Source: a virus
IMG/VR virus record: IMGVR_UViG_3300027741_000010
Span: 1 to 36,571 of that record
Length of the DNA: 36,571 bases
Direction: 5' to 3' (one strand)
Both the position numbers and the translations under genes were made by a program. Below, one piece after another: positions 15,937-28,897 of this stretch. Position 1 is the first letter of the stretch. Every line of letters begins with the position of its first letter. The notes under the pieces were generated by a model. It had not been told where the DNA came from and ran no database searches. It saw nothing but the letters and a program-made list of their open reading frames with translations.

Positions 15937-15963
15937 CATCTATGTTTAACAGGGGTCATAAAC

Positions 15964-16378: not shown

Positions 16379-16734
16379 TGTCCATTACCTCTGCTTTTCA
16401 GGCTATGAGCAAGACGTACAAAGCCAACGCAACTACGTCTACTCAAACCCTCACAATCACTCCTGATTCGCCTTGCACCAAGCTGTGTGTGGCAAACCAT
16501 CAGCCAACTGGTAGCGGTGGTCAGCCTGTATATTTTAATTTAAGCACTTCTAATGCTTCGATTACTTGCACAGCTCCATCAAACGGATCTCCGCAGTCTT
16601 GCTTAGTGTCTGTGCCTGGCACTATCAAGGTGTTTCAGATCCCAGGTCAAGCATCCAATACAAATCCATTGTATGTAGCTTTTATTGGTGAAGCTGCATC
16701 TGAGTGCTACTTTACTCTTGGTGAGGGCATCTAA
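16378..16734 (+). CDS. Small beta-rich virion protein, possible paralogue of the gene at 4162
   Basis: The 118-residue protein is Ser/Thr-rich and beta-type, and ends 'YFTLGEGI'. It has four cysteines (in 'PCTKLC', 'ITC' and 'QSC') plus a late 'ECYF'. Overall order and ending parallel the 109-residue fibre-cluster protein at 4162-4491. A decoration or structural role is likely but not shown. Start and stop overlap with both neighbours. Confidence 0.65.
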   Translation: MSITSAFQAMSKTYKANATTSTQTLTITPDSPCTKLCVANHQPTGSGGQPVYFNLSTSNASITCTAPSNGSPQSCLVSVPGTIKVFQIPGQASNTNPLYVAFIGEAASECYFTLGEGI

Positions 16735-16961
16735 TGTCTGGACCTTCTCTTTCAGTTGGACGTGGTGAGAAACAGTCTGTAGCAGCTGGCGGTGGCCTGA
16801 CTGAAAAGGGTCGCAAGAAGTACAACCGTGCGACTGGCAGCAAGCTCAAGGCTCCGACGAAAGATACCAGTAACCCTCGTCACAAGTCATTCTGTGCTCG
16901 TTCTAAGAGCTGGAAAGGTGAGCGTGGCAAGGCTGCTCGTAGGCGTTGGGGATGTCGTTAA
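16734..16961 (+). CDS. Basic DUF6321-like phage protein
   Basis: The 75-residue protein has the pattern 'AGGGLTEKGRKKYNRATGS', then 'LKAPTKD', 'HKSFCARS' and a final 'ARRRWGC', which I recognise from a widespread family of small basic phage proteins (DUF6321, name from memory). The strong positive charge and conserved Cys suggest nucleic-acid binding or a compact metal-stabilised fold. Function is unknown. It is the last of a tightly overlapped run that began at 15745. Confidence 0.8.
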   Translation: MSGPSLSVGRGEKQSVAAGGGLTEKGRKKYNRATGSKLKAPTKDTSNPRHKSFCARSKSWKGERGKAARRRWGCR

Positions 16962-16980
16962 CTGCTAATAGGGGTCGAGA

Positions 16981-17640
16981 ATGAGTGTGACAGTTGTTAT
17001 CCCCACTATTGGGGCTAGTACCCTTTTTGATGCAGTCGATAGTGTACTGGATCAGGACTATGACACTGAGTGTATGGTTGTCATAGATGGCTTTGAATAC
17101 GAAGATAAGGTCTGGAATGAGATCTGGATGTTAGAAGAGCATCCAAGATGTCATGTAATGATTTTGCCTTACAACGTCGGTGCTAATGGTTTTTACGGAC
17201 ACAGGGTGTACGCAGCCATCGGTCACTTAGTAAACACAGATTATATCTGTTATTTAGATCAAGATAATTGGTTCGATGTTAATCATGTTAGTAGTCTTGT
17301 TAATGTTATTGACCGAAAAGGCCTTGATTGGGCTTACTCATATCGCAAGATCGTGGACAAACAGGGGAAACTGATCTGCAACGACAACTGCGAGAGCCTA
17401 GGTAAAACTACTCAGTTTGTTGATACCAACTGTTATATGGTGAGCCGTAAGGTTGCTGAGGCCATTGGGCATGTTTGGAATGGTGGCTGGGGTCGAGATC
17501 GTGTATTCTATGAGGTCGCCAGTAAGTATTTCCCAAACTTTGACGGATCTGGGTTATATACGGTAAACTATAGGCTTGACGGAAATCCTGACAGCGTGAA
17601 GGCTGAGTTTTTCCTTGAAGGTAACAAGAAGAGGGCGTAA
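16981..17640 (+). CDS. Family 2-type glycosyltransferase
   Basis: The 219-residue protein has the GT-A start 'TVVIPTIGASTLFDAVDSVL' (residues 4-23), a 'VVID' strand (33-36), the metal-binding DQD motif in 'CYLDQDNWF' (Asp93 and Asp95) and a late 'GGWGRDRVFY'. It is about the length of a bare GT2 catalytic domain and has no membrane anchor. The sugar donor and acceptor cannot be read from sequence. It follows an AGGGGTC motif four bases before ATG and sits directly before the holin, so it is expressed late. Late expression would suit modification of virion proteins or host surface glycan. Confidence 0.85.
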   Translation: MSVTVVIPTIGASTLFDAVDSVLDQDYDTECMVVIDGFEYEDKVWNEIWMLEEHPRCHVMILPYNVGANGFYGHRVYAAIGHLVNTDYICYLDQDNWFDVNHVSSLVNVIDRKGLDWAYSYRKIVDKQGKLICNDNCESLGKTTQFVDTNCYMVSRKVAEAIGHVWNGGWGRDRVFYEVASKYFPNFDGSGLYTVNYRLDGNPDSVKAEFFLEGNKKRA

Positions 17641-18029
17641 TGGCTTTTGGTATAGATGATGCTATTGCGGCTGGCTTAAAGGTTCTAGACAAGTTTGTTC
17701 CAGATCCTGAAGCAAAGGCGAAGGCTGAAGCTGAGTTACGTTCTTCTTTACAACAATGGGATAAGGCACAGACAGATGTTAATGCAGTGGAGGCTTCTAA
17801 CCCGAATCTATTCGTTGCTGGCTGGAGGCCTATGATTGGTTGGGTCTGTGCTTTGGCACTGGCCTATCAATATTTGGTTTGTCCTCTCGGTATGTGGATC
17901 GCTACCTCTTTACATTTGGCGGTAACAACGCCACCTAAGCTAGATGATAGTCTTTGGCAGCTCATGTTCGGTATGCTAGGCATGGGTGGTCTTAGGACTT
18001 TTGAAAAGCTAAAAGGGGTCACTAAATGA
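17640..18029 (+). CDS. Three-TM holin (GTA-type holin family)
   Basis: The 129-residue protein has a charged N-terminal helix (about 1-50) followed by the signature 'FVAGWRPMIGWVCALALAYQYLV' (first TM), a second hydrophobic stretch near 80-92, and 'LMFGMLGMGGLRTFEKLKG' near the C-terminus. This matches the 3TM holin family (PF11351 from memory), best known from alphaproteobacterial gene-transfer agents and phages. It opens the inner membrane so that the endolysin, encoded next with a four-base ATGA overlap, can reach the peptidoglycan. Confidence 0.88.
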   Translation: MAFGIDDAIAAGLKVLDKFVPDPEAKAKAEAELRSSLQQWDKAQTDVNAVEASNPNLFVAGWRPMIGWVCALALAYQYLVCPLGMWIATSLHLAVTTPPKLDDSLWQLMFGMLGMGGLRTFEKLKGVTK

Positions 18030-18541
18030 AAAATAACTTTGAACAGTGCTTGGAATTGGTGCTGCGGTCTGAAGGTGGGTTTGTTCAGAATCCTAAAGAT
18101 CCAGGCGGTGCTACCAATCTTGGCGTGACTAAAGCAACTTACGAGTCTTATGTAGGTCATGCAGTCACGGTTGATGACATCAAGGCATTGACACCTGATA
18201 CCGTTGCTCCGTTGTACAAAAAAATGTACTGGGACAAGGTGCACAGCGATAATATCGCTCTTGGTTTAGATTATGCTTTGTTTGACTTCGCTGTTAATTC
18301 AGGCCCACGTCAGGCTACCAAGTTTATTCAGAACATTGCCAGAGTTCCTGCTGATGGCATGATGGGTGATCGCACTGTGCAGCAGCTTGCAAATTTAGAT
18401 CCCAGTGATTGCATTACACGTTTGTGTTCAGAGCGTCTTCAGTTTTTAAAACAGCTCAACACCTGGGATACGTTTGGCAAAGGCTGGCAAAAGCGCGTCT
18501 CTGATGTACAAAAACGCGCTCTTGATATGGTTAACGCTTAA
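18026..18541 (+). CDS. Endolysin, glycoside hydrolase family 108
   Basis: The 171-residue protein has the family start 'LRSEGGFVQNPKDPGGATN' with the likely catalytic Glu16 in the SEGG motif. 'LGVTKATYE', 'MYWDKVHSD' and 'LDYALFDFAVNSGP' follow in the usual order. A peptidoglycan-binding-type C-terminal part starts at about residue 90 ('ADGMMGDRT'). It cleaves peptidoglycan glycan strands at lysis. It has no signal peptide, consistent with release through the holin encoded just upstream. It is the last gene of the late unit and faces the convergent early operon. Confidence 0.9.
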   Translation: MKNNFEQCLELVLRSEGGFVQNPKDPGGATNLGVTKATYESYVGHAVTVDDIKALTPDTVAPLYKKMYWDKVHSDNIALGLDYALFDFAVNSGPRQATKFIQNIARVPADGMMGDRTVQQLANLDPSDCITRLCSERLQFLKQLNTWDTFGKGWQKRVSDVQKRALDMVNA

Positions 18542-18565
18542 TCTTGCGTACTAAGTAATTATACG

Positions 18566-18636
18566 AGTGCAGGATGTGCTGCACTGAATACATGTTAGTG
18601 CTGGATAGAAGTAAAAACTTAAAGGTTTCTCTATCC
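18566..18636. terminator. Hairpin region between convergent late and early units
   Basis: Two hairpins fill the gap between endolysin and the convergent glycosyltransferase: AGTGCAG/CTGCACT (18566-18572 with 18579-18585), and GGATAGA/TCTATCC (18603-18609 with 18630-18636) enclosing AAGT/ACTT. No long T-run follows on either strand, so this is not a textbook intrinsic terminator. Position and paired symmetry make a bidirectional transcript end likely. Confidence 0.4.
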
Positions 18637-18637
18637 A

Positions 18638-19369
18638 TCACATCAACTTTCCATCAAAGGCATAAGTGCCGTGGTGAGACAATTGCACCCAAGGTGCTGC
18701 GTAAACCTTACCGCCATGCAAGCGCCACTGACGGCAGAAGTGATAATCCTCTGACAGCAAACGCTCTGTGCCAGGCTCAATGCTCTCTGTAAAGAACTGG
18801 TAAATACGTTCACGAGGAGCATCTACTTGAGAAAGATCCACTACGTCATTGATATAGCTAGGTGTTTTCTCAATTAACTCATCAAATACTACACGCCTGA
18901 TGAGCATAAAGCCAGTGCCACCTGCCCAGATCTCTAGAGGCTCACCCACTGGAACAGTGACACTGCCAGCATAGTCAATAAGGTTAAGTACCCAAGAGCC
19001 AGTATAATGCTTAAGATTGTTAGGGTCTTCTCCATTTTTAACCCCTTTGGCTACTTGCTGCCAGTTGATTTCTTTCTTCGGATAAATGCCACAAATGATC
19101 TCTTTGTCAGCGTCAATCATAGGTATGACTTGCTCGGCAAAGAACTGAATGTCCGAGTCAATGAAGAAGAGATAGTCCGCATCTGTCTTTAGGAACTGGT
19201 GGACAAGAGCATTACGTCCACGAGTGATAAGGCTTTCGTTCACAAGTACGCTAACCATTGCCTGATGCCCTGCCTGAGCAAAAACATTTTGCAGGTTAAG
19301 AATACTTGTCATGAACATTGCATTACAGTTACCGCCATAACAAGGTGTAGCAATAAATATTTTAGCCAT
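18638..19369 (-). CDS. GT-A fold glycosyltransferase
   Basis: The 243-residue protein begins 'KIFIATPCYGG' (residues 3-13), then 'LITRGRNALVHQFL' (48-60). The metal-binding motif DSD (Asp71 and Asp73) lies in 'YLFFIDSDIQF', followed by 'GTGFMLIRR' and the late 'SEDYHFCRQW', which would hold the catalytic base. This is the pattern of a phage glycosyltransferase group related to Anp1/GT-A enzymes. It is the last gene of the early - strand operon, overlapping the GcrA gene by eight bases. Acceptor unknown; early expression would suit a cell-wall, lipopolysaccharide or DNA target. Confidence 0.85.
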   Translation of the reverse strand: MAKIFIATPCYGGNCNAMFMTSILNLQNVFAQAGHQAMVSVLVNESLITRGRNALVHQFLKTDADYLFFIDSDIQFFAEQVIPMIDADKEIICGIYPKKEINWQQVAKGVKNGEDPNNLKHYTGSWVLNLIDYAGSVTVPVGEPLEIWAGGTGFMLIRRVVFDELIEKTPSYINDVVDLSQVDAPRERIYQFFTESIEPGTERLLSEDYHFCRQWRLHGGKVYAAPWVQLSHHGTYAFDGKLM

Positions 19370-19832
19370 GTCGTAGCTGACCCCTCATATCAAAAACAGG
19401 TTGTTTGTTATAAACTAGCGTAAAATGTTCAGGACACCAGCTTTTCCCAAACATTGTTCGTTTGCCGCAGACCCGTGTATTTTCACCTACTGGTTCCCCC
19501 TCGACCCACTTACACTGACGATTATTTGTATATACAAAAAGAACGCCAGTCGTTTGTTGAGGAGGCTTTACTTCTACAATAGGCTGCACAAACAGTTGCT
19601 TGACAGGTTTTGTTTCTATGACCTGTGGCTTGCGTGGCACTCTCTGTGCAGGCTTCTTAGGCCTGGAGTTCGATAGCCCAGCTCTGTGTATGTAACCTAT
19701 GATAGAGTTTTTAGTTCTATTTAACTTGATAGCAATATCAAGTATGGTTGCACCTTTCTCGTGCATTTCCAATAAAATTTTTCTGTGCTCATCAGGCCAG
19801 ATGGCAGAGGTGACAAACCTGCGCTTGTTCAT
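19362..19832 (-). CDS. gcrA-like: GcrA-type cell-cycle transcription regulator
   Basis: This 156-residue protein matches GcrA at both ends. An N-terminal helix-turn-helix spans about residues 12-55 ('WPDEHRKILLEMHEKGATI' then 'NSIIGYIHRAGLS'). The C-terminal motif shows CKW (Cys107), 'VCGK' (Cys122) and 'SWCPEH' (Cys133, His136), a probable zinc site and sigma-70-contact region. In alphaproteobacteria, GcrA binds RNA polymerase holoenzyme and acts at promoters with CcrM-methylated GANTC. I prefer ATG 19832 (TGATG overlap with the AT-hook gene); GTG 19835 would add one residue. The Pro/Lys-rich linker is typical. A phage copy could redirect host transcription or mimic host timing. Confidence 0.88.
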   Translation of the reverse strand: MNKRRFVTSAIWPDEHRKILLEMHEKGATILDIAIKLNRTKNSIIGYIHRAGLSNSRPKKPAQRVPRKPQVIETKPVKQLFVQPIVEVKPPQQTTGVLFVYTNNRQCKWVEGEPVGENTRVCGKRTMFGKSWCPEHFTLVYNKQPVFDMRGQLRHG

Positions 19833-20005
19833 CACAGCACCTTGCGTGGACGACCACGACCCCTCTTAACCACCTTTTCTTCCTTGGGTGGGCGACCTCT
19901 GCCGCGTGTAATTTTTGCTTCAACGGATGCTTTAAACATTACGTCAGAGATGTAACGCAAAAAGTTGGCAACCTTAATCAGTCGGTTCTGCTCTTCTAGT
20001 GTCAT
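19832..20005 (-). CDS. Small protein with two AT-hook motifs
   Basis: The 57-residue protein joins a helical N-terminal half (about 1-32, possible dimerisation helix) to a tail carrying two AT-hook-type motifs, RGRGRPPK (34-41) and RGRGRPRK (48-55). AT-hooks grip the minor groove of AT-rich DNA. The start ATG overlaps the upstream stop (ATGA) and the stop overlaps the GcrA start (TGATG), so it is translated in line with both. It may be a DNA-bridging or nucleoid-type protein that silences or organises DNA alongside GcrA. The family is not recognised, but the motifs are explicit. Confidence 0.75.
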   Translation of the reverse strand: MTLEEQNRLIKVANFLRYISDVMFKASVEAKITRGRGRPPKEEKVVKRGRGRPRKVL

Positions 20006-20199
20006 GTGACCCTCGCTATATGCTGCTTTAGTTGAATATGAGTTATTGCTTTTAACTTGGTTTGTATGTGTTTCGTTCTCTTGTGTTTCTTTTGTGCCTC
20101 TTTAAGTTGAAGGATTAAAACCTCTCGCTCAGATAGAGGGCGGGGCTTTCTCAAGTCCCTTATAAACCTTTGTATTTTTAGCTTGGCTTTCATAAACAT
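20002..20199 (-). CDS. Small basic helical protein
   Basis: The 65-residue product is strongly basic (many Lys, Arg and His), predicted helical, and starts MFMKAK (a second ATG follows at 20193). It overlaps the upstream resolvase gene by 71 bases, which is long, but its stop overlaps the ATG of the AT-hook gene (ATGA), the coupling seen throughout this operon. It may bind nucleic acid. No family recognised. Confidence 0.5.
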   Translation of the reverse strand: MFMKAKLKIQRFIRDLRKPRPLSEREVLILQLKEAQKKHKRTKHIQTKLKAITHIQLKQHIARVT

Positions 20200-20500
20200 T
20201 CATCAGCTCCCAAAAATCTGACAGACGCATGATGACAATCTCTTCTTCACGGTCTGCTTTAGCTATGACGATTGGTTTCTGTATGCCAGACGCAGCCACA
20301 ATGGCTTGATCTAGCCAGCCGTAGACACGCCCGATGGTGGCGTATCTTTTACATTCAATAAGCCAGCGAGCGAGGTTAATGTCCCCGCCGCTGTCACGAG
20401 TTTGGTTTAAGTTTCGAGCAGCGTCATAGCCCATGCGCTTGAGTTCATTGACTATATCGCGCTCGAACTGGTGACCCTTATTGCGTTGCATTTTACCCAT
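20129..20500 (-). CDS. PD-(D/E)xK nuclease, Hjc-like Holliday junction resolvase
   Basis: The 123-residue protein shows the compact resolvase layout. Glu13 lies in an N-terminal 'GHQFERDIVNEL' helix, then 'RNLNQTRDSGGDI' (Asp40), then 'LIECKR' (Glu49-x-Lys51). These residues form the metal site of the archaeal-type Hjc family. It would cut branched DNA produced by recombination or replication before packaging. Its neighbours encode an SSB-like protein, RecT and the YqaJ exonuclease, so the recombination set is complete. Start and upstream stop overlap (TAATG). Confidence 0.82.
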   Translation of the reverse strand: MGKMQRNKGHQFERDIVNELKRMGYDAARNLNQTRDSGGDINLARWLIECKRYATIGRVYGWLDQAIVAASGIQKPIVIAKADREEEIVIMRLSDFWELMNVYESQAKNTKVYKGLEKAPPSI

Positions 20501-20748
20501 TAAAAGGGAACCTCATTGTCATCACGGCTGACTGGGCGTGGATATTCTTGCTTTGCCTGACCGTCTGGCTTCCAAGTGTTGTGCTTAAGATTGATGCCTT
20601 TATAATCATTATGCCAAGCACTTAGCTTCACTTCTTCACCTGCCTTAACGTCTTCTAAAAGAATAACACCACCAGTAAAATCTGGGTGAGAGGGTGCTAA
20701 TTTCTTGTCGTTTACGCGCAGTGACCCGTAACCTGGTTTTTTAGCCAT
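20500..20748 (-). CDS. Putative single-stranded-DNA-binding protein with SSB-type acidic tip
   Basis: The 82-residue protein is small for an SSB. It is beta-rich with aromatic residues ('LSAWHNDYKGINLKHNTW') and ends 'SRDDNEVPF', very like the acidic DDxxPF tip through which bacterial SSB recruits recombination and replication proteins. Lying directly between RecT and the resolvase strengthens the reading. The OB fold itself cannot be proven by eye. It could also be a RecT accessory factor. Confidence 0.65.
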   Translation of the reverse strand: MAKKPGYGSLRVNDKKLAPSHPDFTGGVILLEDVKAGEEVKLSAWHNDYKGINLKHNTWKPDGQAKQEYPRPVSRDDNEVPF

Positions 20749-21485
20749 TACATTTTCTCCATAATATCTTTATTGACGCTAGATAGTTGCTTCAGGCGAT
20801 CAGTCTTCTCATCGTCTGTAAGTTTTTTAGAGTCCGAGATCCGCTCGGTCAGCTCCATGTAAGCATCGGGCCAACGGTCTTCTTCGACCCACATATGCAC
20901 CTTGCGATCACCGCTTCCGTCTGGGATGTAGAGAGGCAGCTTGCCAGTGTGATCTTCTTCAATCTCCTCAACCAGCTCCATGTGAGCGATCTGCACAGGT
21001 TCTTTGTAAGACTTGTCAAAGTCCATGACCTCCTCGACCGCATAGTGACCAAGGATGCAAGCAGGATAAACACGCCGCACACCTTCAGAGATGACCCGCG
21101 CAGCCAGCATAGCCCTAGGGTAATTCTTCCAGTTGTCCTTTTTGGCAAGCCCGATGTCGTGTGCCTGCTTAAGCGTCCATGCAAGCGTCAGAGTGCCACC
21201 AGCGGGGTGAGAGAACGTCATCTCCACCTTGTCATCAGTATAAGCACCATACTCAACCTTGCCACCAGCAAGCTGAAAGCGGGCAAGAATGGCCTGAGAC
21301 TTAAGCGCAGGACGACCCTGAATGATGTCGTATTCCTGCACAACCGTTGCTGGGTGCTTATTCTCTGCCTGAGCCACAGCCATGATAGCCATGACCTGAT
21401 CCTCAGACTTAAACCCATAAAACCCTGACTTAACAATGGCTTGCGCCATAGACTTCATGTCATTCATTGGAACCAAAGATGTCAT
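20748..21485 (-). CDS. recT: RecT-family single-strand annealing protein
   Basis: The 245-residue protein has the conserved RecT-like core: 'MAQAIVKSGFYGFKSEDQ' (residues 13-30), 'VMAIMAVAQAENKHPATVVQ', 'YDIIQGRPALKSQAILARFQ', 'GGKVEYG' and 'YPRAMLAARVISEGVRRVYP' (about 143-162). It anneals complementary single strands at the ends made by the paired 5'-3' exonuclease (YqaJ-type, 22126-23046). In phages this pair supports recombination-dependent replication, end repair and concatemer formation. A charged C-terminal tail (about 185-245) is probably for partner contact. AGGAAA precedes the ATG. Confidence 0.88.
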   Translation of the reverse strand: MTSLVPMNDMKSMAQAIVKSGFYGFKSEDQVMAIMAVAQAENKHPATVVQEYDIIQGRPALKSQAILARFQLAGGKVEYGAYTDDKVEMTFSHPAGGTLTLAWTLKQAHDIGLAKKDNWKNYPRAMLAARVISEGVRRVYPACILGHYAVEEVMDFDKSYKEPVQIAHMELVEEIEEDHTGKLPLYIPDGSGDRKVHMWVEEDRWPDAYMELTERISDSKKLTDDEKTDRLKQLSSVNKDIMEKM

Positions 21486-21487
21486 GG

Positions 21488-21715
21488 TTATTTCCTATTC
21501 ATTTTTACTAAATTGTAATTTTTGTTTCTGTTAATTCCTGTTTCTGTCCAAGATTGTAATTTCCACTTATTAGTGCTGACACAGTCTTTATAAATTTCCA
21601 AAGCACCATGAACTGAATATTTACCATGCCCATCAATCGCATAAATGCGAACCCAATGACCATCATCAGTTGTGTATCCACTTTCAAGATCAATTAGATG
21701 AGGTTTCTTCGGCAT
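21488..21715 (-). CDS. Hypothetical protein in recombination operon
   Basis: I choose ATG 21715 because GAGGAAG lies just upstream; an in-frame TTG at 21721 is less likely. The 75-residue product has a beta-rich middle ('GHWVRIYAIDGHGKYSVHGAL') and a basic tail. No known motif. It overlaps its upstream neighbour by 26 bases and ends two bases before the RecT start, so it belongs to the same transcript. Confidence 0.65.
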   Translation of the reverse strand: MPKKPHLIDLESGYTTDDGHWVRIYAIDGHGKYSVHGALEIYKDCVSTNKWKLQSWTETGINRNKNYNLVKMNRK

Positions 21716-21908
21716 CTTCAACTTCCTCTTTTGTTAACTCAATGTCGTAAACCTTTGAAATAAAATCCATAATGTCTTTCAAAGGGAATGTGGCTGCTGA
21801 TGACTGATTGCTGTTTGTTACAATCACAGTGATGGTGTCATCACCGTTGTCACAGAACGTCAGCATAGAATGTTTTTCATTAAATAACCGAACTTCTGTC
21901 TTCATCAT
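21690..21908 (-). CDS. Hypothetical acidic protein in recombination operon
   Basis: The 72-residue product starts with two Met codons (21908 and 21905), has a beta-hairpin-like 'NGDDTITVIVTNSN' and ends in an acidic 'KEEVEDAEETSSN' tail. Its start overlaps the upstream stop. It lies between a coiled-coil protein and another unknown gene in the exonuclease-RecT operon and may be an accessory or inhibitor protein. No family recognised. Confidence 0.65.
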   Translation of the reverse strand: MMKTEVRLFNEKHSMLTFCDNGDDTITVIVTNSNQSSAATFPLKDIMDFISKVYDIELTKEEVEDAEETSSN

Positions 21909-22129
21909 TTTTTTGCCCTTTTCCGGTTAGAGGATCTCAAATCGTTGATTTGAGTTTCAAGCAAATCTTTGTTGCGTTCGTATCGCTGGATAAGATCAGC
22001 TTGAACATCAATCCTTTTTTTCAATTCATGTATCTTTTCGTTCAGTTGTTTATTGATTTCTGCTGTAGCGATCATACGCCCCAAAAGAAAATCTGCTGTC
22101 TGAATTGGAACCTCTGTCATCTGTGTCAT
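21905..22129 (-). CDS. Small coiled-coil protein downstream of exonuclease
   Basis: The 74-residue protein is almost entirely helical with a heptad-like charged pattern from about residue 22 ('INKQLNEKIHELKKRIDVQ') to 65, and a basic end ('SSNRKRAKK'). The start overlaps the exonuclease stop by four bases (ATGA). Oligomerisation or nucleic-acid contact is plausible. Function unknown. Confidence 0.7.
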   Translation of the reverse strand: MTQMTEVPIQTADFLLGRMIATAEINKQLNEKIHELKKRIDVQADLIQRYERNKDLLETQINDLRSSNRKRAKK

Positions 22130-23046
22130 TTTACTAAAAACCTCCGTGATCCTGCAGTTTCATCCTTGTATTGCTCGTAAAGTTTAGGATTTTCCTGCTC
22201 AAAACGCTTGGCGTTGAACCGTTTGCTAGGCTTGGCTGTCTTCCATGTGACCAGAATATCACCAGCGACGTTGACCAGCTCTGCCTTGTCAGCCATGTAG
22301 GACATCAATCGAGCCTGAGCGATCTTTTCCTTGTTCTCAAGCTCTTTGATCCTGACCTTAATGTCCTTCAAGGCTTCGCAGTATTCCTCGATCACCTTGG
22401 TAGCAACGATGCTTGAGCCATCGTCCTTGCGATAGATGCTCTGAGCCTGCTCAACCGTCTCTGGGCTTGGCAGCTGACCTGTCTTGTGCATAGCCCACCA
22501 GCCAGCAGCGCGTTGGATGAAGTCTGCCTTCATCTCATCTGTAACATCAATGCGCCACCAACGGAACCGCTGACCACCGAACAGCACGGCAAAGTAAATG
22601 TGAGGCACGTCAAAAACTGTCGCCTCATGGATGCACTGCACAATGTCTTGCTCAGGCAGCTTCGTCCAGTGGTCGTCCATATCTGGGTATTTTTTGAACT
22701 GGTGATCGCCAAAGTTCTTAACCTCCAGCAGACCCTTGTCGCCTGTCCAGAAGTCACCATGTGCGCGAAGCCAAGGCTCGGTCGAGTGTGTGCCTGCTAC
22801 GTCAAGATCACGAACTGATATTCCAGTTGACTCTTCCCATAGCTTCCCGATTGCGCTTTCCAGAAATAACCCCATCTGCACCGCTTCGATGCCTGATAGA
22901 TTAGCGCGTTCTTTTTCGCCCCGCTTCTCCAGCAGCACGTCAAGGAGCTGACCCGAAACTGCTCGCCTCGAATCCGTTGCCCACCACGCACTTTGCCGTT
23001 CTTCTGGCGCAAAGCCTTCTCCGATAATATGTCCACCACTTGCCAT
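22126..23046 (-). CDS. YqaJ/lambda-exonuclease-like 5'-3' exonuclease
   Basis: The 306-residue protein carries the PD-(D/E)xK core of YqaJ-type recombinases: 'GLFLESAIGKLW' (Glu63), 'RAHGDFW' (Asp98) and 'LLEVKNF' (Glu108, Lys110), then 'IVQCIHEATVFDVPHIYFAVLFGG'. A C-terminal helical extension (about 215-306) follows, with basic residues. It resects duplex ends to expose 3' single strands for the RecT protein encoded four genes downstream. It lies two bases from the first gene of the operon, which reads from the strong promoter at 23290-23318. Confidence 0.85.
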   Translation of the reverse strand: MASGGHIIGEGFAPEERQSAWWATDSRRAVSGQLLDVLLEKRGEKERANLSGIEAVQMGLFLESAIGKLWEESTGISVRDLDVAGTHSTEPWLRAHGDFWTGDKGLLEVKNFGDHQFKKYPDMDDHWTKLPEQDIVQCIHEATVFDVPHIYFAVLFGGQRFRWWRIDVTDEMKADFIQRAAGWWAMHKTGQLPSPETVEQAQSIYRKDDGSSIVATKVIEEYCEALKDIKVRIKELENKEKIAQARLMSYMADKAELVNVAGDILVTWKTAKPSKRFNAKRFEQENPKLYEQYKDETAGSRRFLVK

Positions 23047-23047
23047 G

Positions 23048-23266
23048 TTATGCCTCTCCTACTGCTTTGCCGTTTTTAATATCAAAAGCGGCTGATTGAA
23101 TATCAACTTGCAGAAGGTGCAGACCATGCAGAGTATCAGCAAAAACCCCAACCACCTCACGAGGCAGCAAATGCGGATGTAACGCATAAAGCCCGTGCTT
23201 TGCTTGCTCTAGCACTGTGTGCATATTGCTCAAGTGCTGTAGATTTTGTTCAACTTCTTTTTTCAT
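23048..23266 (-). CDS. Small helical protein, first gene of recombination operon
   Basis: The 72-residue protein is helical and His/Leu-rich ('LSNMHTVLEQAKHGLYALHPHLLP'), with no membrane segment or catalytic motif. It is the promoter-proximal gene of the - strand operon, with an AGAGGGTC motif six bases before ATG. First position implies high and early expression. Function unknown. Confidence 0.7.
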   Translation of the reverse strand: MKKEVEQNLQHLSNMHTVLEQAKHGLYALHPHLLPREVVGVFADTLHGLHLLQVDIQSAAFDIKNGKAVGEA

Positions 23267-23289
23267 AGTAGCGACCCTCTAGGACTATC

Positions 23290-23318
23290 TTAATATATTA
23301 TATTATTAGACCTGTCAA
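23290..23318 (-). promoter_or_regulatory. Sigma-70 promoter of the leftward recombination operon
   Basis: On the - strand, a perfect TTGACA (23318-23313) is followed after 17 bases by TATTAA (23295-23290). A transcript would begin near 23283, a short leader before the ATG at 23266. The spacer is almost all A and T. It is the best match to a housekeeping promoter that I see in the window, in keeping with immediate-early use of host RNA polymerase. Confidence 0.75.
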
Positions 23319-23327
23319 CCAAGTTGA
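23315..23327. promoter_or_regulatory. Palindromic operator candidate between divergent promoters
   Basis: The sequence TCAAC-CAA-GTTGA is a perfect 5-3-5 palindrome. Its left half overlaps the -35 box of the leftward promoter and its right half overlaps the -35 box of the rightward one. A dimeric repressor here would block both. The adjacent rightward gene encodes a ribbon-helix-helix protein, the natural candidate binder. This is inference from position. Confidence 0.55.
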
Positions 23328-23352
23328 TAAATTATTTTACTTGTGCTAAAAA
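23324..23352 (+). promoter_or_regulatory. Rightward promoter for the RHH regulator
   Basis: TTGATA (23324-23329) and TAAAAA (23347-23352) are separated by 17 bases, with a TGTG just before the -10. The transcript would start near 23359, giving a leader of about 25 bases to ATG 23385, which has GGAG upstream. It is weaker than the opposing promoter by consensus match. Confidence 0.55.
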
Positions 23353-23384
23353 TTAGTCACCTTAACTTAAACATGGAGACTAAA

Positions 23385-23597
23385 ATGTCCGATCAACTTG
23401 TTAGAAAATCTATGCTTTTTCCTGAGACACTGTGGACTGAAATCGAGGATTTCCGTTTCGACAACCGCATCAAATCTGACGTTGAGGCTATTAGGCTTTT
23501 GATGAAAGCTGGCTTGCATTTTATTAAATTGCAGCAAGACGACCAGTTTGCACAAGCTGAGCAGGAAGCTGTGGAGCGTCTTAACGCACAGGGGTAA
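23385..23597 (+). CDS. Ribbon-helix-helix DNA-binding regulator
   Basis: I start at ATG 23385, preceded by GGAG; an in-frame TTG at 23343 lies within the promoter. The 70-residue protein has a short N-terminal strand (about 4-12, 'QLVRKSMLFP'), helix A ('ETLWTEIEDFRFDN') and helix B (about 31-45, 'DVEAIRLLMKAGLHF'), the Arc/MetJ-like plan, plus a Gln/Glu-rich helical tail. Such proteins bind short palindromes as dimers through the strand. The operator candidate lies about 60 bases upstream. It likely controls itself and the divergent recombination operon. Confidence 0.75.
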   Translation: MSDQLVRKSMLFPETLWTEIEDFRFDNRIKSDVEAIRLLMKAGLHFIKLQQDDQFAQAEQEAVERLNAQG

Positions 23598-23600
23598 GCC

Positions 23601-24185
23601 ATGCGGTGGTTCAGGCTTTACGATGACGTTCTGAACGATCCAAAGGTGCAGAGGCTGAGCGGTGAGACGTTCAAGCTCTGGATCAACCTGCTTTGCATCG
23701 CGAGCAAGCATGGTGGCGTTCTGCCTAGCCTTGACGATTTGGCTTTCCAACTACGTCTGCCAGCACTGGTTTGCAAAACTGAAATAGACACTTTGAAATC
23801 AGCTGGATTGATAGACGGAGACAAGAAGCTAAAGCCTCATGGTTGGGACAAAAGGCAATATAAATCAGACACTTCTACTGAACGAGTGAAGCGTTTCAGG
23901 GAACGCTGCAGAAACGCTCCAGAAACGGTGAATGAAACAGTGCCAGATACAGATACAGAAGCAGATACAGAAACAGAAACAAAACAGAGCATAATCTTTC
24001 CTTTGGATGGAACGATTGCTTATAGTCATTGGGCTGACAAGGTCAGGGCAACTGGCAAGAACATAGATCCAGACTTTGTGGCCTCTGGTTTTAGGAAATG
24101 GGCAAGGTCTAAGGATATTCAATTCGATGACAAGAACATCGAAAAGATATTCTTAAGCTTCCTTAAACACCAGAGAGCCTCATAA
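23601..24185 (+). CDS. Replication initiator / replisome-organizer-like protein
   Basis: The 194-residue protein opens with a winged-helix-type domain (about 1-85: 'MRWFRLYDDVLNDPKVQRLS', 'FKLWINLLCIASKHGGVLPS', 'LAFQLRLPALVC'). Then come 'DKRQYKSDTSTERVKRFRER', an acidic low-complexity linker DTDTEADTETETK (about 115-128) and a C-terminal domain ('FVASGFRKWARSKDIQFDD'). This is the layout of phage replisome organizers that bind the origin and hand a helicase-loading job to host proteins. It is the only replication gene I can see. AGGGGTAAGCC precedes the ATG. Confidence 0.75.
   Translation: MRWFRLYDDVLNDPKVQRLSGETFKLWINLLCIASKHGGVLPSLDDLAFQLRLPALVCKTEIDTLKSAGLIDGDKKLKPHGWDKRQYKSDTSTERVKRFRERCRNAPETVNETVPDTDTEADTETETKQSIIFPLDGTIAYSHWADKVRATGKNIDPDFVASGFRKWARSKDIQFDDKNIEKIFLSFLKHQRAS
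23944..23979 (+). repeat. Tandem hexamer repeat inside the initiator gene (possible origin element)
   Basis: Six consecutive hexamers read CAGATA, CAGATA, CAGAAG, CAGATA, CAGAAA, CAGAAA, encoding the acidic linker of the initiator. An AT-richer stretch follows. In lambda-like phages the origin lies in the middle of the initiator gene, with repeated binding sites and an AT-rich side. Here the repeat is short and may only reflect the low-complexity linker. Confidence 0.45.
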
Positions 24186-24250
24186 ACGCACAGAAACGGC
24201 TCTCCAGCGGCTTTCGTGGGGGTGGGGAGCTACTACCCTACCCGCGAGAC

Positions 24251-24281
24251 AAAAAAAGACCTCCAGAGCGGATCATGGAGG
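24251..24281 (-). terminator. Rho-independent terminator of the leftward small-gene cluster
   Basis: On the - strand, CCTCCA (24281-24276) pairs with TGGAGG (24265-24260) around a 10-base loop, and the run TTTTTTT follows (24257-24251). It lies after the last small gene of the 25867-24325 cluster and stops that transcript before it meets the convergent initiator gene. The surrounding 24186-24324 stretch holds no other convincing gene. Confidence 0.8.
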
Positions 24282-24324
24282 CCAAGTCAGGGAGGAAAAC
24301 ACCAGCAAGAGGCTGATCTGTTTG

Positions 24325-24438
24325 TTATACACCCATGCGCGACGTGCTGCAACCGCAAAGCGTGATGGATAACAGCATTGCCAAGCTTGAGTAAAAGATG
24401 AACAAGGCTATCCAGTCTCGAATGTCATCCTTATGCAT
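24325..24438 (-). CDS. Very small membrane or lipoprotein-like peptide
   Basis: The 37-residue ORF begins on an ATG overlapping the upstream stop, with AGAGGA a few bases before it. A charged start (MHKDDIRD) is followed by one hydrophobic span (about 9-30) ending LCGCST. That could be a membrane anchor or a weak lipobox with Cys30 as the modified residue. It might be an outer-membrane spanin-like or superinfection peptide. Support is the ribosome site, the operon position and the terminator just behind it. Confidence 0.5.
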   Translation of the reverse strand: MHKDDIRDWIALFIFYSSLAMLLSITLCGCSTSRMGV

Positions 24439-24784
24439 GATCATCCTCTGGTGGTGCGAGGGATTGCATCAGGTCGTGCTCGATCTTGGCGAGCGTCTCA
24501 TCCTCAACTTTGACCTGCTCAACTGTTCCAGACAAGAGACCGTAAAGTCCCATGATCTCTAGCATGTTATTGATATTGCTAGGCTTCACAGAAACCTTAG
24601 CCTCCAACAATGCCAAGTGCATCTGGATAGCCTCGGAAACCGAGACCACCCTGTTGAGCTTCAATGTCGCAATGCTGGCAGCTTTTTCCCACAGCACATC
24701 TTGCTTGCCGTAGTGATATTCACTTGTGCTTTGTGCATGTGAGACGTTTACGAGTGCTTCATCCAATGTCATTTTATCCCCCAT
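24431..24784 (-). CDS. Hypothetical helical protein
   Basis: The 117-residue protein is mostly helical with mixed charge ('MTLDEALVNVSHAQSTSEYH', 'LNRVVSVSEAIQMHLALLEAK') and an acidic C-terminus ending 'EDDHA'. No membrane or catalytic motif. Start and stop overlap with both neighbours, so it is part of the leftward small-gene transcript. No family recognised. Confidence 0.7.
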   Translation of the reverse strand: MGDKMTLDEALVNVSHAQSTSEYHYGKQDVLWEKAASIATLKLNRVVSVSEAIQMHLALLEAKVSVKPSNINNMLEIMGLYGLLSGTVEQVKVEDETLAKIEHDLMQSLAPPEDDHA

Positions 24785-25041
24785 TATGCTACTTGTGACG
24801 CTTGTTCAGACAGCATGATATGCGCTATTTGCTCATAATCAGCACATTGAACGAATTTCTGTGCATACACCTTCGCATGACCATCCTCTGTTGTCATATC
24901 CAACCAAGCTAGGACATAGCAGCGCAAGACCTCAGCAGTTTCCCCTATGGTGAGACCTTCCCACCCCATATCTGCTAAGCCAAGTCCCTCAATATGATCT
25001 GTATAAACCATATATGTTTCTATATTTGACCAACCGTTCAT
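24784..25041 (-). CDS. Hypothetical acidic protein
   Basis: I choose ATG 25041, preceded by the AGGGGTC ribosome-site motif, giving 85 residues. The upstream in-frame extension would run through the small gene at 25064-25228. The product is acidic, with Trp and Tyr residues and an amphipathic C-terminal helix ('YEQIAHIMLSEQASQ'). Function unknown; early anti-host proteins of this size are common in such clusters. Confidence 0.7.
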   Translation of the reverse strand: MNGWSNIETYMVYTDHIEGLGLADMGWEGLTIGETAEVLRCYVLAWLDMTTEDGHAKVYAQKFVQCADYEQIAHIMLSEQASQVA

Positions 25042-25063
25042 TGTAGTGACCCCTTCTCGATCG

Positions 25064-25228
25064 TTATATTGTTTGTTTCTTAATGCTATCATTAAGAGCA
25101 TATAAATATTCTAATATAGGAACAACTTTGTATTTATCTAAGTTGATCTTCTTGGTTAGCTTCTCGTTAAACGTCTCAAACACTGCCTTGCCTGTAGCTA
25201 TTTCAACAATTACCCATGATTTTGTCAT
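25064..25228 (-). CDS. Small basic-acidic mixed protein
   Basis: The 54-residue ORF starts MTKSWVIVEIATGKAVFETF, has a Lys-rich middle and ends KKQTI. AAGGGG lies a few bases before ATG. It fits between its neighbours without overlap, in line with the rest of the cluster. Its short beta-hairpin-like start resembles many small phage early proteins. No family recognised. Confidence 0.6.
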   Translation of the reverse strand: MTKSWVIVEIATGKAVFETFNEKLTKKINLDKYKVVPILEYLYALNDSIKKQTI

Positions 25229-25242
25229 TTTAATCCCCTTCT

Positions 25243-25440
25243 TTACGCCAGCAATTCTGCTGTGCGATAATTTGATAATTCTGATTTACGAACAAAACGA
25301 ATTAAACCGTTGTGATCGCCGTTTTTTTGAACAAAACTAACCCAAAGCCAATCTGGTGACCAAGAAAGGCGATCAACAATGATAACCATGATTTTACCAG
25401 TGTGCATTGCATAGTCAGCAACATTATATGTTTTTGTCAT
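25243..25440 (-). CDS. Hypothetical small beta protein
   Basis: The 65-residue protein is beta-rich ('GKIMVIIVDRLSWSPDWLWVSFVQ') with basic residues toward the end ('RFVRKSELSNYR'). A TATATAAT-like stretch and AGAGGG lie upstream on the - strand, so it may also have its own promoter in the 25441-25475 gap. Function unknown. Confidence 0.65.
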   Translation of the reverse strand: MTKTYNVADYAMHTGKIMVIIVDRLSWSPDWLWVSFVQKNGDHNGLIRFVRKSELSNYRTAELLA

Positions 25441-25473
25441 AACAGTGTTTTCCCTCTGTATATATTATATATA

Positions 25474-25572
25474 TTAACCAAAGACTACCATGCACCAGTA
25501 GCAAAGATAGCACCAGATGATGAGACCAAGCGTGGCGAAGAGACTGTCGAGGATGGTTTCTGTATGTTTCAT
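25474..25572 (-). CDS. Very small single-TM, Cys/Trp-rich membrane peptide
   Basis: The 32-residue ORF (MKHTETILDSLFATLG at its start) is hydrophobic from about residue 10 to the end, with three Cys, two Trp and two Tyr in the span, so it is a single membrane segment with an outward or inward tail of only a few residues. It begins just after the upstream gene's stop. Such minimal membrane peptides in early clusters can act in superinfection exclusion or membrane disturbance. Evidence is composition and position only. Confidence 0.45.
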   Translation of the reverse strand: MKHTETILDSLFATLGLIIWCYLCYWCMVVFG

Positions 25573-25573
25573 G

Positions 25574-25867
25574 TTATGCAGCCTCTACGTCATAAGCATC
25601 GACAAGAAACTGCTCAGCAGCCTCTTTTGTTGCAAAGACTGTCCACTCTGTGCAATCGAGATAGCCAGGCATTGACAAACGAGCACCATAGCCATCGACA
25701 ATGCTAGTTTCCCATACTTTGCCATCATAAAATGGTTGCACGTCAGAAACAGATGGTTGCATCGTGCGAAGATTAGGATTTGAGTAGACAACATCAAAAG
25801 GAACAAATGTGATGCCGTTTGTGCCGTCGATCTCGATCCAACGAGTATAAATGATTTGTGGTTGCAT
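25574..25867 (-). CDS. Hypothetical protein, first gene of leftward small-gene cluster
   Basis: The 97-residue protein is beta-rich with several Tyr and Trp ('IIYTRWIEIDGTNGITFVPF') and ends in 'EQFLVDAYDVEAA', a probable helix. AGGAG lies before the ATG, and a promoter with a palindromic spacer sits about 20-50 bases upstream. First position suggests strong early expression. No family recognised. Confidence 0.7.
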   Translation of the reverse strand: MQPQIIYTRWIEIDGTNGITFVPFDVVYSNPNLRTMQPSVSDVQPFYDGKVWETSIVDGYGARLSMPGYLDCTEWTVFATKEAAEQFLVDAYDVEAA

Positions 25868-25887
25868 AGTGTTCTCCTATATATTTA

Positions 25888-25917
25888 TATATATATGATC
25901 ATTATTGATCATGTCTA
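25888..25917 (-). promoter_or_regulatory. Promoter of leftward small-gene cluster with palindromic spacer
   Basis: On the - strand, TAGACA (25917-25912) and TATATA (25893-25888) are 18 bases apart. The spacer contains a 7-bp inverted repeat, ATGATCA-TTAT-TGATCAT (25895-25912), made of two TGATCA palindromes. A protein bound there would block RNA polymerase. The binder is unknown; the site differs from the TCAAC palindrome at 23315. Confidence 0.5.
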
Positions 25918-26273
25918 TAATCTATATCATTATATGATTATGATCAAGATAATATTATATAGGTAAGAATACTTATTTACATAATATGTGTGTTAAATAT
26001 ACCAGCAGGTTAATTCACAGAAGGTTTATGTGATTTACTCTCCCCGTGCGCCGTCAAATGTGAATTAGGGTCGCCCTGTGATGACCATGCTTAACATGGG
26101 CTTGGATGCTTTGAAGCCTCTAGATCCTGTTTTATATTAATATAAATACATGATGATTAGTGATGGTATGTGATGATATGATTATATACGGATAGGACGG
26201 CTAAACGGGATGCGTTGGGCCAAGGGGGGCGGTGTGGGCGTGCACCCCACCTTGTTCACCCCAAAAAAATTTC

Positions 26274-26302
26274 TTGGTTGTTTTTATTTAATCGGTTATA
26301 TG
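26274..26302 (+). promoter_or_regulatory. Promoter for the 26310 gene pair
   Basis: TTGGTT (26274-26279) and TATATG (26297-26302) are 17 bases apart. The predicted start of transcription (about 26308-26310) falls on or just before the ATG at 26310, and no ribosome site is visible there. The mRNA may therefore be leaderless. Confidence 0.45.
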
Positions 26303-26309
26303 GTGTTGT

Positions 26310-26540
26310 ATGGTTATACAGATTGATAAACATATTCCGGTTAACAAGTTTCTGAAGCGTGCGCGGAAGCATCAGTATCCATTTGCACAGATGGATCCTG
26401 GCGATTCGTTTTACGTTGAGGGTGATTTGGGTGTTTGCCAGACGGTTAGGACGCTGATGTGGCGTTTTACGAAGGAGACTGGCTGGAAGTTTGTGACCCG
26501 TCGGGATGAAGGTGGGTTGCGTGTTTGGAGGGTTAGTTGA
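26310..26540 (+). CDS. DUF7303-like phage protein
   Basis: The 76-residue protein has the pattern 'YPFAQMDPGDSFYV' (about 23-36), then 'RTLMWRFTKETGWKFVTRR' and a final 'GGLRVWRVS', which I associate with a small phage family (DUF7303, from memory). It is basic and may bind nucleic acid. No ribosome-binding sequence precedes ATG; see the promoter just upstream. Its stop overlaps the next start (TGATG). Confidence 0.7.
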   Translation: MVIQIDKHIPVNKFLKRARKHQYPFAQMDPGDSFYVEGDLGVCQTVRTLMWRFTKETGWKFVTRRDEGGLRVWRVS

Positions 26541-26761
26541 TGTTAGACTTTGACAAGCCGATAGATCGGAGGATCAATATCTTGACCTCTCAGATCTTTG
26601 AGATGATGTCGGGTGACGGTGCTGTGATTAGTATGGAGAGTTGCAAGCGTTTAGCTCAGAGCTGGGTGACTTGCGAGGACCGTGCTTATTACCGTGGTCG
26701 GCATAAGGAAGTTGAGAAGTTGCGTAGATTGATGGAAGACGTTTGGTCGGCTGAGGTGTGA
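26540..26761 (+). CDS. Hypothetical helical protein
   Basis: The 73-residue product starts at ATG 26540 within TGATG. It is mainly helical with mixed charge ('RRINILTSQIFEMMSGDGAV', 'KEVEKLRRLMEDVW') and has two Cys. It is the second gene of a two-gene + unit that ends at a hairpin directly on its stop codon. No family recognised. Confidence 0.65.
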   Translation: MLDFDKPIDRRINILTSQIFEMMSGDGAVISMESCKRLAQSWVTCEDRAYYRGRHKEVEKLRRLMEDVWSAEV

Positions 26762-26786
26762 GGGGGATTTCTCCCCCTTTAGTTTT
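26761..26786 (+). terminator. Intrinsic terminator of the 26310-26761 unit
   Basis: AGGGGGA (26761-26767) pairs perfectly with TCCCCCT (26772-26778) around a four-base TTTC loop, followed by a TT-A-G-TTTT tract. The first base of the stem is the last base of the stop codon. It separates the + unit from the convergent acidic-protein gene. Confidence 0.75.
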
Positions 26787-27027
26787 AGGCGTATTCTTCT
26801 TCCGACCAGTCGTCATCTTCGTCTTCATCGTCTTCCAGATCTTCATCTTCTGGGTCGATGTCGTCTTCATAGTCAATGAGATCATAGATTTCTGAGACGA
26901 GGAGGTATGCAGCGCCAAGACGCTCGATCAGTGACATTTCCATGAAGTCGGCTGATGGCTGGAAGGTTACTTCATCCACACCGTCGTCAGATTGCGAGAG
27001 AACAGCAGTACCAATTACGAGAGCCAT
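26785..27027 (-). CDS. Small protein with very acidic C-terminal tail
   Basis: The 80-residue protein has a short globular part (about 1-48) and a tail (about 52-80) in which most residues are Asp or Glu. AAGGAG stands seven bases before the ATG. Such acidic tails can mimic DNA and block restriction, nucleoid or polymerase proteins, or bind basic partners. No named family. It is a single-gene unit convergent with the 26310 pair. Confidence 0.7.
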   Translation of the reverse strand: MALVIGTAVLSQSDDGVDEVTFQPSADFMEMSLIERLGAAYLLVSEIYDLIDYEDDIDPEDEDLEDDEDEDDDWSEEEYA

Positions 27028-27085
27028 AGTAATCTCCTTTGGAGGGTTTGTAGACGGTTCCTAAGATATATTTATTATATGAATA

Positions 27086-28021
27086 TTAGAATACATATTT
27101 GTTACGGAAGGCTGGTCGGCCACGGATCATCTCGCAGAACTCTGGTGGCATGAGATTGTTTTCTTCGTCAAATGTTAGGAAAACGAAGCCAGCGCATTGC
27201 CTGTTTGGAGCACCTTCTGTGTATTCGAACTGCGGTCCCCACGGATCTGCTAACATTCCGCACTCGATACCATAATGCGAGCCACGACGGTTCCTGACGG
27301 CTGTGAGCTGGAGATGGTGGGTATGGGATGTGACAATGTTGATGCCTGAGTGCAGGGCGTTGTTCCATGCGGTGTGGATACCACCACGGAAGCGGTGCCG
27401 GATCTCGACTTCGTTGATGACGGCTGCCCAGCAAAATTCCCATTCTGGGAAACGGTCTTTGATGCGGCCTGCGTAGTCCTCTAGCTCTGGGGCTGCTGAG
27501 GCTAGATAGTTATCTACACGGATGTCGTGGTTGCCCATCGTCCAGATTTTATGTGCGGAGAGGGGGAGCATTTTAAGATGCTCTCTGACGGCTTCAACTT
27601 CTTGAGAGATCTTGGGTGCTTTGGAGCCGAGAGGTCTACCGTGACGGGAAACTCTAGCGCCGTCGAGAATGTCGCCGTTAAGGACGATGCAGTCTGGCTT
27701 GAGTTGCTTGGCTACCTTGGCAAAGGCTTTCCACATAATGGTTGGCTCGCCAGGCCAGATGTGGGCATCACCGCCAACAAGAACTGTTTTAATGTCTTTT
27801 TCTGGTGAGTAGATCGGTGGTACAACCCATTCAGTTGGTTCTAATTGTTGGTGTTTTTGATCGAATAGATGAGGGAAAAACTCTTTGGCTTTGCCAAGTT
27901 GCTGTCTGATTGTAGATCTTGGTATATTGAGTTGGAAGCCAGTGGCCCTTGCCGAGCCTGTTTTGTTGTAAACATTTATGACGTGAATGAGATGTTCATC
28001 AGGAACAGGTCTGGAAGACAT
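27086..28021 (-). CDS. Metallophosphoesterase with N-terminal helix-turn-helix
   Basis: I choose ATG 28021 (AAGGA upstream), giving 311 residues; an in-frame TTG at 28039 would extend it by six. Residues about 9-45 form a helix-turn-helix ('VINVYNKTGSARATG', 'IPRSTIRQQL'). From about 78 the calcineurin-like metal site is complete: 'GGDAHIW' (Asp85, His87), 'LNGDILDG' (Asp117), 'GNHD' (Asn164, His165), a later 'GGIH', and 'SHTHH'. It would hydrolyse a phosphodiester in DNA, RNA or a nucleotide. The HTH fusion suggests targeting to a DNA site. A promoter lies upstream (28052-28080). Confidence 0.82.
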   Translation of the reverse strand: MSSRPVPDEHLIHVINVYNKTGSARATGFQLNIPRSTIRQQLGKAKEFFPHLFDQKHQQLEPTEWVVPPIYSPEKDIKTVLVGGDAHIWPGEPTIMWKAFAKVAKQLKPDCIVLNGDILDGARVSRHGRPLGSKAPKISQEVEAVREHLKMLPLSAHKIWTMGNHDIRVDNYLASAAPELEDYAGRIKDRFPEWEFCWAAVINEVEIRHRFRGGIHTAWNNALHSGINIVTSHTHHLQLTAVRNRRGSHYGIECGMLADPWGPQFEYTEGAPNRQCAGFVFLTFDEENNLMPPEFCEMIRGRPAFRNKYVF

Positions 28022-28051
28022 TTTAAAATCCTTAGGCAATTAAGGGTTTGC

Positions 28052-28080
28052 AATATAAACTTTTTTTCTGTGTAGGTAAA
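28052..28080 (-). promoter_or_regulatory. Promoter for the HTH-phosphoesterase gene
   Basis: On the - strand, TTTACC (28080-28075) and TATATT (28057-28052) are separated by 17 bases, leaving a leader of about 25 bases to ATG 28021. The -35 is only a partial match. It stands back to back with the tRNA promoter. Confidence 0.5.
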
Positions 28081-28112
28081 ATGACACAAACTTTAATTTG
28101 TTAAATTATTTG

Positions 28113-28141
28113 TTGCATATTGTTGTTCTGATAGTTATTTA
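28113..28141 (+). promoter_or_regulatory. Promoter before tRNA-Arg and the late unit
   Basis: TTGCAT (28113-28118) and TATTTA (28136-28141) are 17 bases apart, placing the transcript start at about the first base of the tRNA (28150). It could serve the tRNA alone or also feed glycosyltransferase, terminase and the following late genes, since I see no terminator between them. Confidence 0.5.
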
Positions 28142-28149
28142 TATGTGAC

Positions 28150-28226
28150 GCGCTTGTAGCTCAACTGGATAGAGCGTCGGTCTACGAAACCGAAGGTTGG
28201 AGGTTCGAAACCTTCCAAGCGCACCA
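28150..28226 (+). tRNA. tRNA-Arg (anticodon ACG), CCA encoded
   Basis: The 77-base cloverleaf is complete. The acceptor stem GCGCTTG/CAAGCGC closes with encoded ACCA. A D-arm, an anticodon stem TCGGT/ACCGA with loop CTACGAA (anticodon ACG) and a T-arm with TTCGAAA follow. It reads CGU and, after A34-to-inosine editing by host TadA, CGC and CGA. CGT is the visible favourite Arg codon in the virion genes. No integrase accompanies it, so I see no sign of attachment-site use. Confidence 0.95.
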
Positions 28227-28240
28227 ATAGAGGGGTTCAC

Positions 28241-28897
28241 ATGAGAGTTCACACACTGGCTTGGCCTGACGTTGATACGAGGGTAATTAACGCACATGAG
28301 AGTGTAATTAAGCATTTTGGTCTGAGTGCTTGTTATTATCGGATTCACATGCCGCATGGCGCGTGGATGGACAAGGTTTGCAAAGATGAATTTGAGACGG
28401 GTGCGGAGGTTGTTTGTTTTCTGGAGATCGACTGCGTTCCGACCTGTGAGACAATTATGGCTAGGACGTATCGCTGGACGAAAGAGAATCGGGGGGTTCT
28501 TGGCATTGCTCAAAGTGCTAACCACCTTGATCCTCGTCACATTTATGCTGGCCCGCCTTTTCTTATGGTTCACCGTGATGCTTGGAAGAAAGTGGGCGTT
28601 ACCTTTTCTGAACAGCCTGATTCTGACACGGCACAATTCTTTACCAGAACTGCTGAGAAATTGGGTCTGCCTATTCGCTGCATATATCCTACTCACTACC
28701 TATATCCTGCCGATGAGGGACGATGGGCTTTGGGCAATTATGGATTTTTTGGGCGCGGCACTTACTATAGCGGTGGGGTGTTTCACATGTTTCAGGGTCG
28801 CACAAACAATGCGATCAATACTTTCGTAGACGTGTGTGATAAGATTGTCACAGGACATTTTTCCACTGGCGGCTGGTATGAAAGTGCAAAGCTATGA
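28241..28897 (+). CDS. Glycosyltransferase-like protein (nucleotide-sugar GT-A type)
   Basis: The 218-residue protein has an N-terminal alpha-beta start, a metal-site-type motif 'CFLEIDCVP' (Glu62, Asp64), a middle 'YAGPPFLMVHRDAWKKVG' that often shapes the acceptor pocket, and a late 'GGVFHMFQGR'. It resembles phage glycosyltransferases in which the DxD motif is relaxed to ExD. AGAGGGG precedes the ATG. The last bases overlap terminase (ATGA), so it is expressed with packaging genes. Substrate unknown. It is the third glycosyltransferase-like gene in this small genome. Confidence 0.7.
   Translation: MRVHTLAWPDVDTRVINAHESVIKHFGLSACYYRIHMPHGAWMDKVCKDEFETGAEVVCFLEIDCVPTCETIMARTYRWTKENRGVLGIAQSANHLDPRHIYAGPPFLMVHRDAWKKVGVTFSEQPDSDTAQFFTRTAEKLGLPIRCIYPTHYLYPADEGRWALGNYGFFGRGTYYSGGVFHMFQGRTNNAINTFVDVCDKIVTGHFSTGGWYESAKL

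Follow-up and report, generated by a model that had tools for sequence, protein, structure and literature searches.

Why should a phage be so poor in one five-base word over part of its genome? The question is raised by a freshwater phage known from the virus record IMGVR_UViG_3300027741_000010 (IMG/VR), whose 36,571 bases, analysed over their whole length, are called the window here. Its recombination and replication genes form an early block at about 18.6-28 kb, and packaging and structural genes lie on both flanks. The word is GANTC, the methylation site of CcrM. An earlier reading of the letters alone (the sequence-only reading) had found GANTC strongly depleted in the early genes, and had proposed, for a phage that carries a GcrA homologue, that CcrM methylation or HinfI-type restriction of early DNA is selected against. 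The shortage of GANTC in the window is real: the early trough stands, and a further shortage claimed to its right does not. We think it fairly probable that the shortage reflects avoidance of Type II restriction sites, layered on the scarcity of GANTC found in Alphaproteobacteria.

The early trough and its size

The block in question, 18541..28021, is made up of recombination/replication genes, most of which are encoded on the minus strand, and spans roughly one-quarter of the 36.6 kb record rather than “the early half of the genome” as first described. An exact count confirmed five GANTC sites in it and no others, all of them coding (19155..19159, 20830..20834, 22829..22833, 22970..22974, and 26403..26407). 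There are 19 sites in 28021-36571, where about 18 had been counted by eye, and 30 in 1-18540, giving 54 in the window. Base composition predicts 36.1 sites for the early block, within the 35-40 first estimated, 33.3 for 28021-36571, and 70.2 for 1-18540. GATC is indeed common, with 54, 44, and 66 sites in the same three regions.

The size of the deficit depends on the null model. We rejected the composition null as misleading, in that the region at 28-36 kb looks depleted under it and is not. A plain synonymous shuffle without junction dinucleotides, which inflates many palindromes, was used first and then replaced by a shuffle that preserves the protein, the codon pool and usage, and the junction dinucleotides (the codon+dinucleotide null). 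Under this null, the early block has 5 GANTC sites against 15.8 expected (ratio 0.32, z -4.0), the lowest z of 272 motifs there; the maximal Markov expectation is 19.1. The late genes at 28-36 kb show no deficit (19 against 20.0), so the supposed “around half of expectation” in this region was an effect of composition. The left-hand late genes at 1-18.5 kb have 30 against 35.4. In other words, the early depletion survives, and its strength had been overstated by the composition null. The ratios of observed to expected counts from dinucleotides are 0.46 for the whole window, 0.13 for the early block, and 0.62 for the late genes.

With only 54 sites in the window, some stretch of 9.5 kb must be poor, and the poorest one was picked. 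When the emptiest 9.5 kb is corrected for this choice (1000 placements of 54 sites), p is only 0.034. The sequence-only reading had held that an equal shortage of other motifs would speak against it, and such a shortage is found in part, with GTAC (4 against 10.9), GGCC (9 against 18.5), and CCNGG (6 against 14.0) also low in the early block. We nevertheless consider a chance trough improbable, given the first place of GANTC among the 272 motifs and the recurrence of the bias in related genomes. GANTC is scarcer in early than in late genes in all eight family genomes compared under a Markov null, where it gives the largest contrast of 32 palindromes, followed by GGNCC, and in seven of the eight under a codon null (pooled, 0.72 early and 0.87 late); of these genomes, three are closely related to one another in the early block. 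The codon-null contrast, for which the genes were called as simple greedy open reading frames, is carried by the window and two relatives (G008 and G006), and GGNCC and CCNGG show similar contrasts across the eight genomes. The early bias of GANTC is therefore recurrent and real, yet modest, and it is not confined to GANTC.

Missing words in the window and its family

The early deficit sits within a much broader avoidance of palindromes that runs over the whole window (1..36571). In its genes, 6-bp palindromes number 208 against 458.9 expected under the codon null (z -14.7, ratio 0.45), at similar levels in early (0.42) and late (0.46) genes, and a near-palindrome control stands at 1429 against 1346.6 (ratio 1.06). 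In the early block, the mean z under the codon+dinucleotide null is -1.01 for palindromes and 0.07 for other motifs. CCSGG is absent from the window, against 13.0 expected under the codon null and 30.6 from dinucleotides, a cleaner loss than that of GANTC. Some 6-bp palindromes are at or near zero (AACGTT, 0 against 15.7; AAGCTT, 1 against 18.5), whereas others are untouched (AGATCT, 17 against 10.1; GTTAAC, 16 against 15.2), all under the codon null. The avoidance in the window is thus word-specific, and it points to recognition words as the target rather than to palindromes as such. Phage lambda, a control under the dinucleotide model, has lost no 4-5 bp word. It should be mentioned that GATC exceeds its expectation in the window (157 against 132.6, codon null).

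The relatives of this phage are abundant in IMG/VR, and we took the best 80 of at least 599 matches to its terminase large subunit (28894..30684, plus strand; PHROGs 2.9e-14), of which two GenBank phages share 74%. The terminase tree includes 48 of the 60 units of at least 7 kb, the window among them; the omissions are six units without a terminase and L016, L017, L038, L039, L058, and L100, in which the match ran past the stop. In-frame stops in 13 of 92 terminases were considered and dismissed as merely tails beyond the true stop. GANTC density splits this phylogeny of 48 rows, as it does in pelagiphages: the ratio pooled from dinucleotides is 0.31 in the 19 rows that include the window and 0.79 in the other 29. 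The split between the two halves has a support of 90/91 and is drawn open. Mann-Whitney p-values from this comparison, which take no account of relatedness, were set aside.

Among family units of at least 7 kb, the missing words vary by lineage. In the half that includes the window, GANTC has been lost entirely from L044 (0 against 49) and L046 (0 against 55), and other members have lost only the GAWTC subset and kept GASTC: L026 (GAWTC 0 against 28, GASTC 9 against 26) and L011 (0 against 20 and 5 against 12). The same pattern is found in G006, of 36,490 bases (L115 and L116), with GAWTC at 0 against 77 and GASTC at 23 against 62. In the second half of the tree, the losses are of GATC, GGCC, ACGT, CCGG, CGCG, or CCWGG, with several lost together in MW202753 and G007. 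MW202753 (35.6 kb; L001 and L119) has no GATC (96 expected), no GGCC (102), and no ACGT (81); CASTG, CCWGG, and CGWCG are also at zero in it. Sister phages whose terminases are about 75-80% identical thus carry quite different sets of missing palindromes. Complete, lineage-specific losses of this kind are what restriction produces, and they argue for restriction-type selection.

These observations support the restriction part of the earlier proposal: the early deficit survives the codon+dinucleotide null amid palindrome-specific avoidance throughout the genome, and relatives have lost GANTC or GAWTC altogether. The link to a CcrM-bearing host is only indirect. Restriction enzymes that cut at GANTC, or at the GAWTC subset of it, would have been present in the hosts of this lineage, and phage copies that lost these sites by silent changes would have survived more often. 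The early block may be lowest in GANTC either by consisting of exchangeable modules with that history or by being the place where cuts were costliest.

Several observations weigh against avoidance of restriction sites as the cause. GAWTC is at par in the late genes of the window (35 against 33.9, codon null), and GANTC is depleted only in part in the window (0.46, dinucleotides), where relatives have complete losses. In the early genes of 15 close relatives pooled, the GANTC deficit is mild (61 against 100.1), and those of CCNGG (41 against 109.3) and GTAC (32 against 91.3) are stronger; the late genes of the relatives have 91 against 106.5 (14 loci, with L008 and L091, which are the same contig, counted twice). 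No recent purge of GANTC is visible in site turnover, since the orthologous early genes of 16 relatives give, when summed, 34 shared sites, 20 found only in the window, and 28 found only in the relative. The enzyme step in this account is one that we infer.

The host background and the CcrM/GcrA question

In 11 stretches of alphaproteobacterial chromosomes, the pooled GANTC ratio is 0.47 (range 0.12-0.90), and in nine gamma- and betaproteobacterial stretches it is 0.81. By this measure, the window's half of the tree looks alphaproteobacterial-like, and the other half matches gamma/betaproteobacterial chromosomes. The GcrA family occurs in 36 of 58 alphaproteobacterial genomes and in none of 56 from the class holding the betaproteobacterial metagenome-assembled genome; one archaeal control genome also matched. 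The host is probably an alphaproteobacterium. Two further clues were set aside. The tRNA-Arg(ACG) gene at 28150..28226 (plus strand; ARAGORN), which sits exactly where the early block gives way to the packaging genes, has best matches of 88% in Alphaproteobacteria and 83% in Gamma/Betaproteobacteria, a weak distinction, and the bins of family contigs are contradictory (two betaproteobacterial, one alphaproteobacterial, and one of Patescibacteria).

Could the phage simply share the word usage of a CcrM-bearing alphaproteobacterial host, acquired through mutation, repair, or codon context, with no restriction involved? The figures fit closely: the ratio for the window (0.46) equals that of the pooled alphaproteobacterial stretches, and the lowest of these (0.12) is about the level of the early block (0.13). 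Moreover, GANTC is reported to be at least twofold under-represented in all alphaproteobacterial orders except Rickettsiales, and CcrM as the sole cause of this scarcity has been doubted (PMC3973325). However, some relatives have lost every GANTC site, or every GAWTC site only, which goes further than host levels; in addition, CCSGG and many 6-bp palindromes are missing from the window, while 6-bp palindromes as a set stand at 0.79 in the alphaproteobacterial stretches. Host-like usage as the whole explanation is possible, in our view, but rather unlikely.

The remaining suggestion is regulatory: GANTC would be excluded from early DNA to keep host CcrM methylation and GcrA from disturbing early transcription, or to limit the response to a chosen set of promoters. 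A GcrA-family gene does lie inside the early block, and the early bias of GANTC is present. The gene (19362..19835, minus strand) encodes a protein of 157 residues that scores 55.4 bits against Pfam GcrA, above the cut-off of 26.9, and only 48.7 bits against the NCBIfam GcrA equivalog, far below the cut-off of 280. The phage thus carries a member of the family, as claimed, and not a true GcrA equivalog. With this protein as the anchor, the phage collection gave no match at E 1e-3. In profile scans of 50 of the 56 intended family records, a GcrA match was missing from 43, many of them fragments, including the GANTC-poor G006. All 54 GANTC sites lie clear of non-coding DNA, which makes up 2,763 bases of the window and takes in the gaps ahead of the early operons; the window thus offers no GANTC site as a candidate for a promoter.

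CcrM is blind to the middle base of GANTC. The sparing of GASTC in relatives that have lost only GAWTC, G006 among them, is therefore not what an effect of CcrM would be expected to give. A promoter role of GANTC in the window for CcrM or GcrA is not supported, and we consider regulation of this kind very improbable as the cause of the depletion. Because the shortage is part of a broad purge of palindromes and matches the alphaproteobacterial scarcity, it is poor evidence for special control by CcrM and GcrA.

A phage-borne CcrM-type methylase as a shield was also considered and rejected. A methylase of the CcrM superfamily (PF01555) was found in only one of the 50 records scanned, G008, and the window has no match to it; the G008 protein is nearest to DpnA, and its CcrM score is 52 against a cut-off of 830. 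In this close relative, the DpnA-like adenine methylase is encoded between early genes (L120, 4078-4806, minus strand). The matching interval of the window, 24186-24430, is a gap of 245 bases.

From a hand-picked selection of the window's open reading frames, the other early genes of note encode a RecT-like annealing protein (20748..21485, minus strand; PHROGs 3.8e-16), a RecE-like/YqaJ exonuclease (22126..23046, minus strand; PHROGs 7.2e-50), and a replication initiation protein or DnaD-like loader (23601..24185, plus strand; PHROGs 2.5e-16). A very acidic protein of 80 residues with a D/E-rich tail (26785-27027, minus strand), which has no Pfam match, could be a DNA mimic.

Comparison with known systems

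Both site avoidance by phages and GANTC scarcity in Alphaproteobacteria are already established. The window is a further case, and the finding for the window itself is largely ordinary; its family is an unusually clean example. In our searches of open-licence literature listings, we found neither a phage loss confined to GAWTC nor such different word sets in sister lineages of one family. Lost words are the fossil trace that host restriction leaves in phages, and the family could serve to infer the enzymes of hosts that have never been grown, and to examine whether GANTC restriction coexists with CcrM. As a long shot, we propose that some freshwater Alphaproteobacteria have made a defence of the CcrM cell-cycle mark: a stand-alone restriction enzyme, for GANTC in one lineage and for GAWTC in another, would be paired with the orphan methylase CcrM, which would give the protection. 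The loss of just these words, lineage by lineage, in this phage family would be the record of an arms race. Were this true, the restriction enzymes of hosts not in culture could be read from the words that their phages lack.

Rusinov et al. (2018; PMC6286503) reported that the words of orthodox Type II systems are under-represented or fully lost in prokaryotic viruses, with complete or near-complete site loss in about one-tenth of viral genomes, and that complete loss is commoner in non-temperate double-stranded DNA phages; GANTC goes unmentioned in the main text of that paper. What differs here is that sister lineages of one uncultured family have different complete losses, including that of GAWTC without GASTC. 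In alphaproteobacterial chromosomes, the same word shows a deficit of similar size to that of the window, but there GANTC is enriched between genes (PMC3973325), whereas the window has none between genes.

Escherichia phage T7 (NC_001604), our second control under the dinucleotide model, has a ratio of 0.46 for 6-bp palindromes, against 0.45 in the window, and short Type II words are lost in both. T7 has no shortage of GANTC (218 against 180.5) and has lost GATC (6 against 152.6) and CCWGG (2 against 70.1) instead. The likeness to pelagiphages concerns GANTC itself. In these phages, a GANTC-poor and a GANTC-normal group are split along the phylogeny, the alphaproteobacterial host methylates GANTC, and a defence role of this mark was raised by the authors (PMC9516812). 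The phylogeny of the window's family likewise has GANTC-poor and GANTC-normal halves; the family is, however, a different group of phages, found in lakes and springs, and its poor half includes losses of GAWTC alone, while its other half has lost other words.

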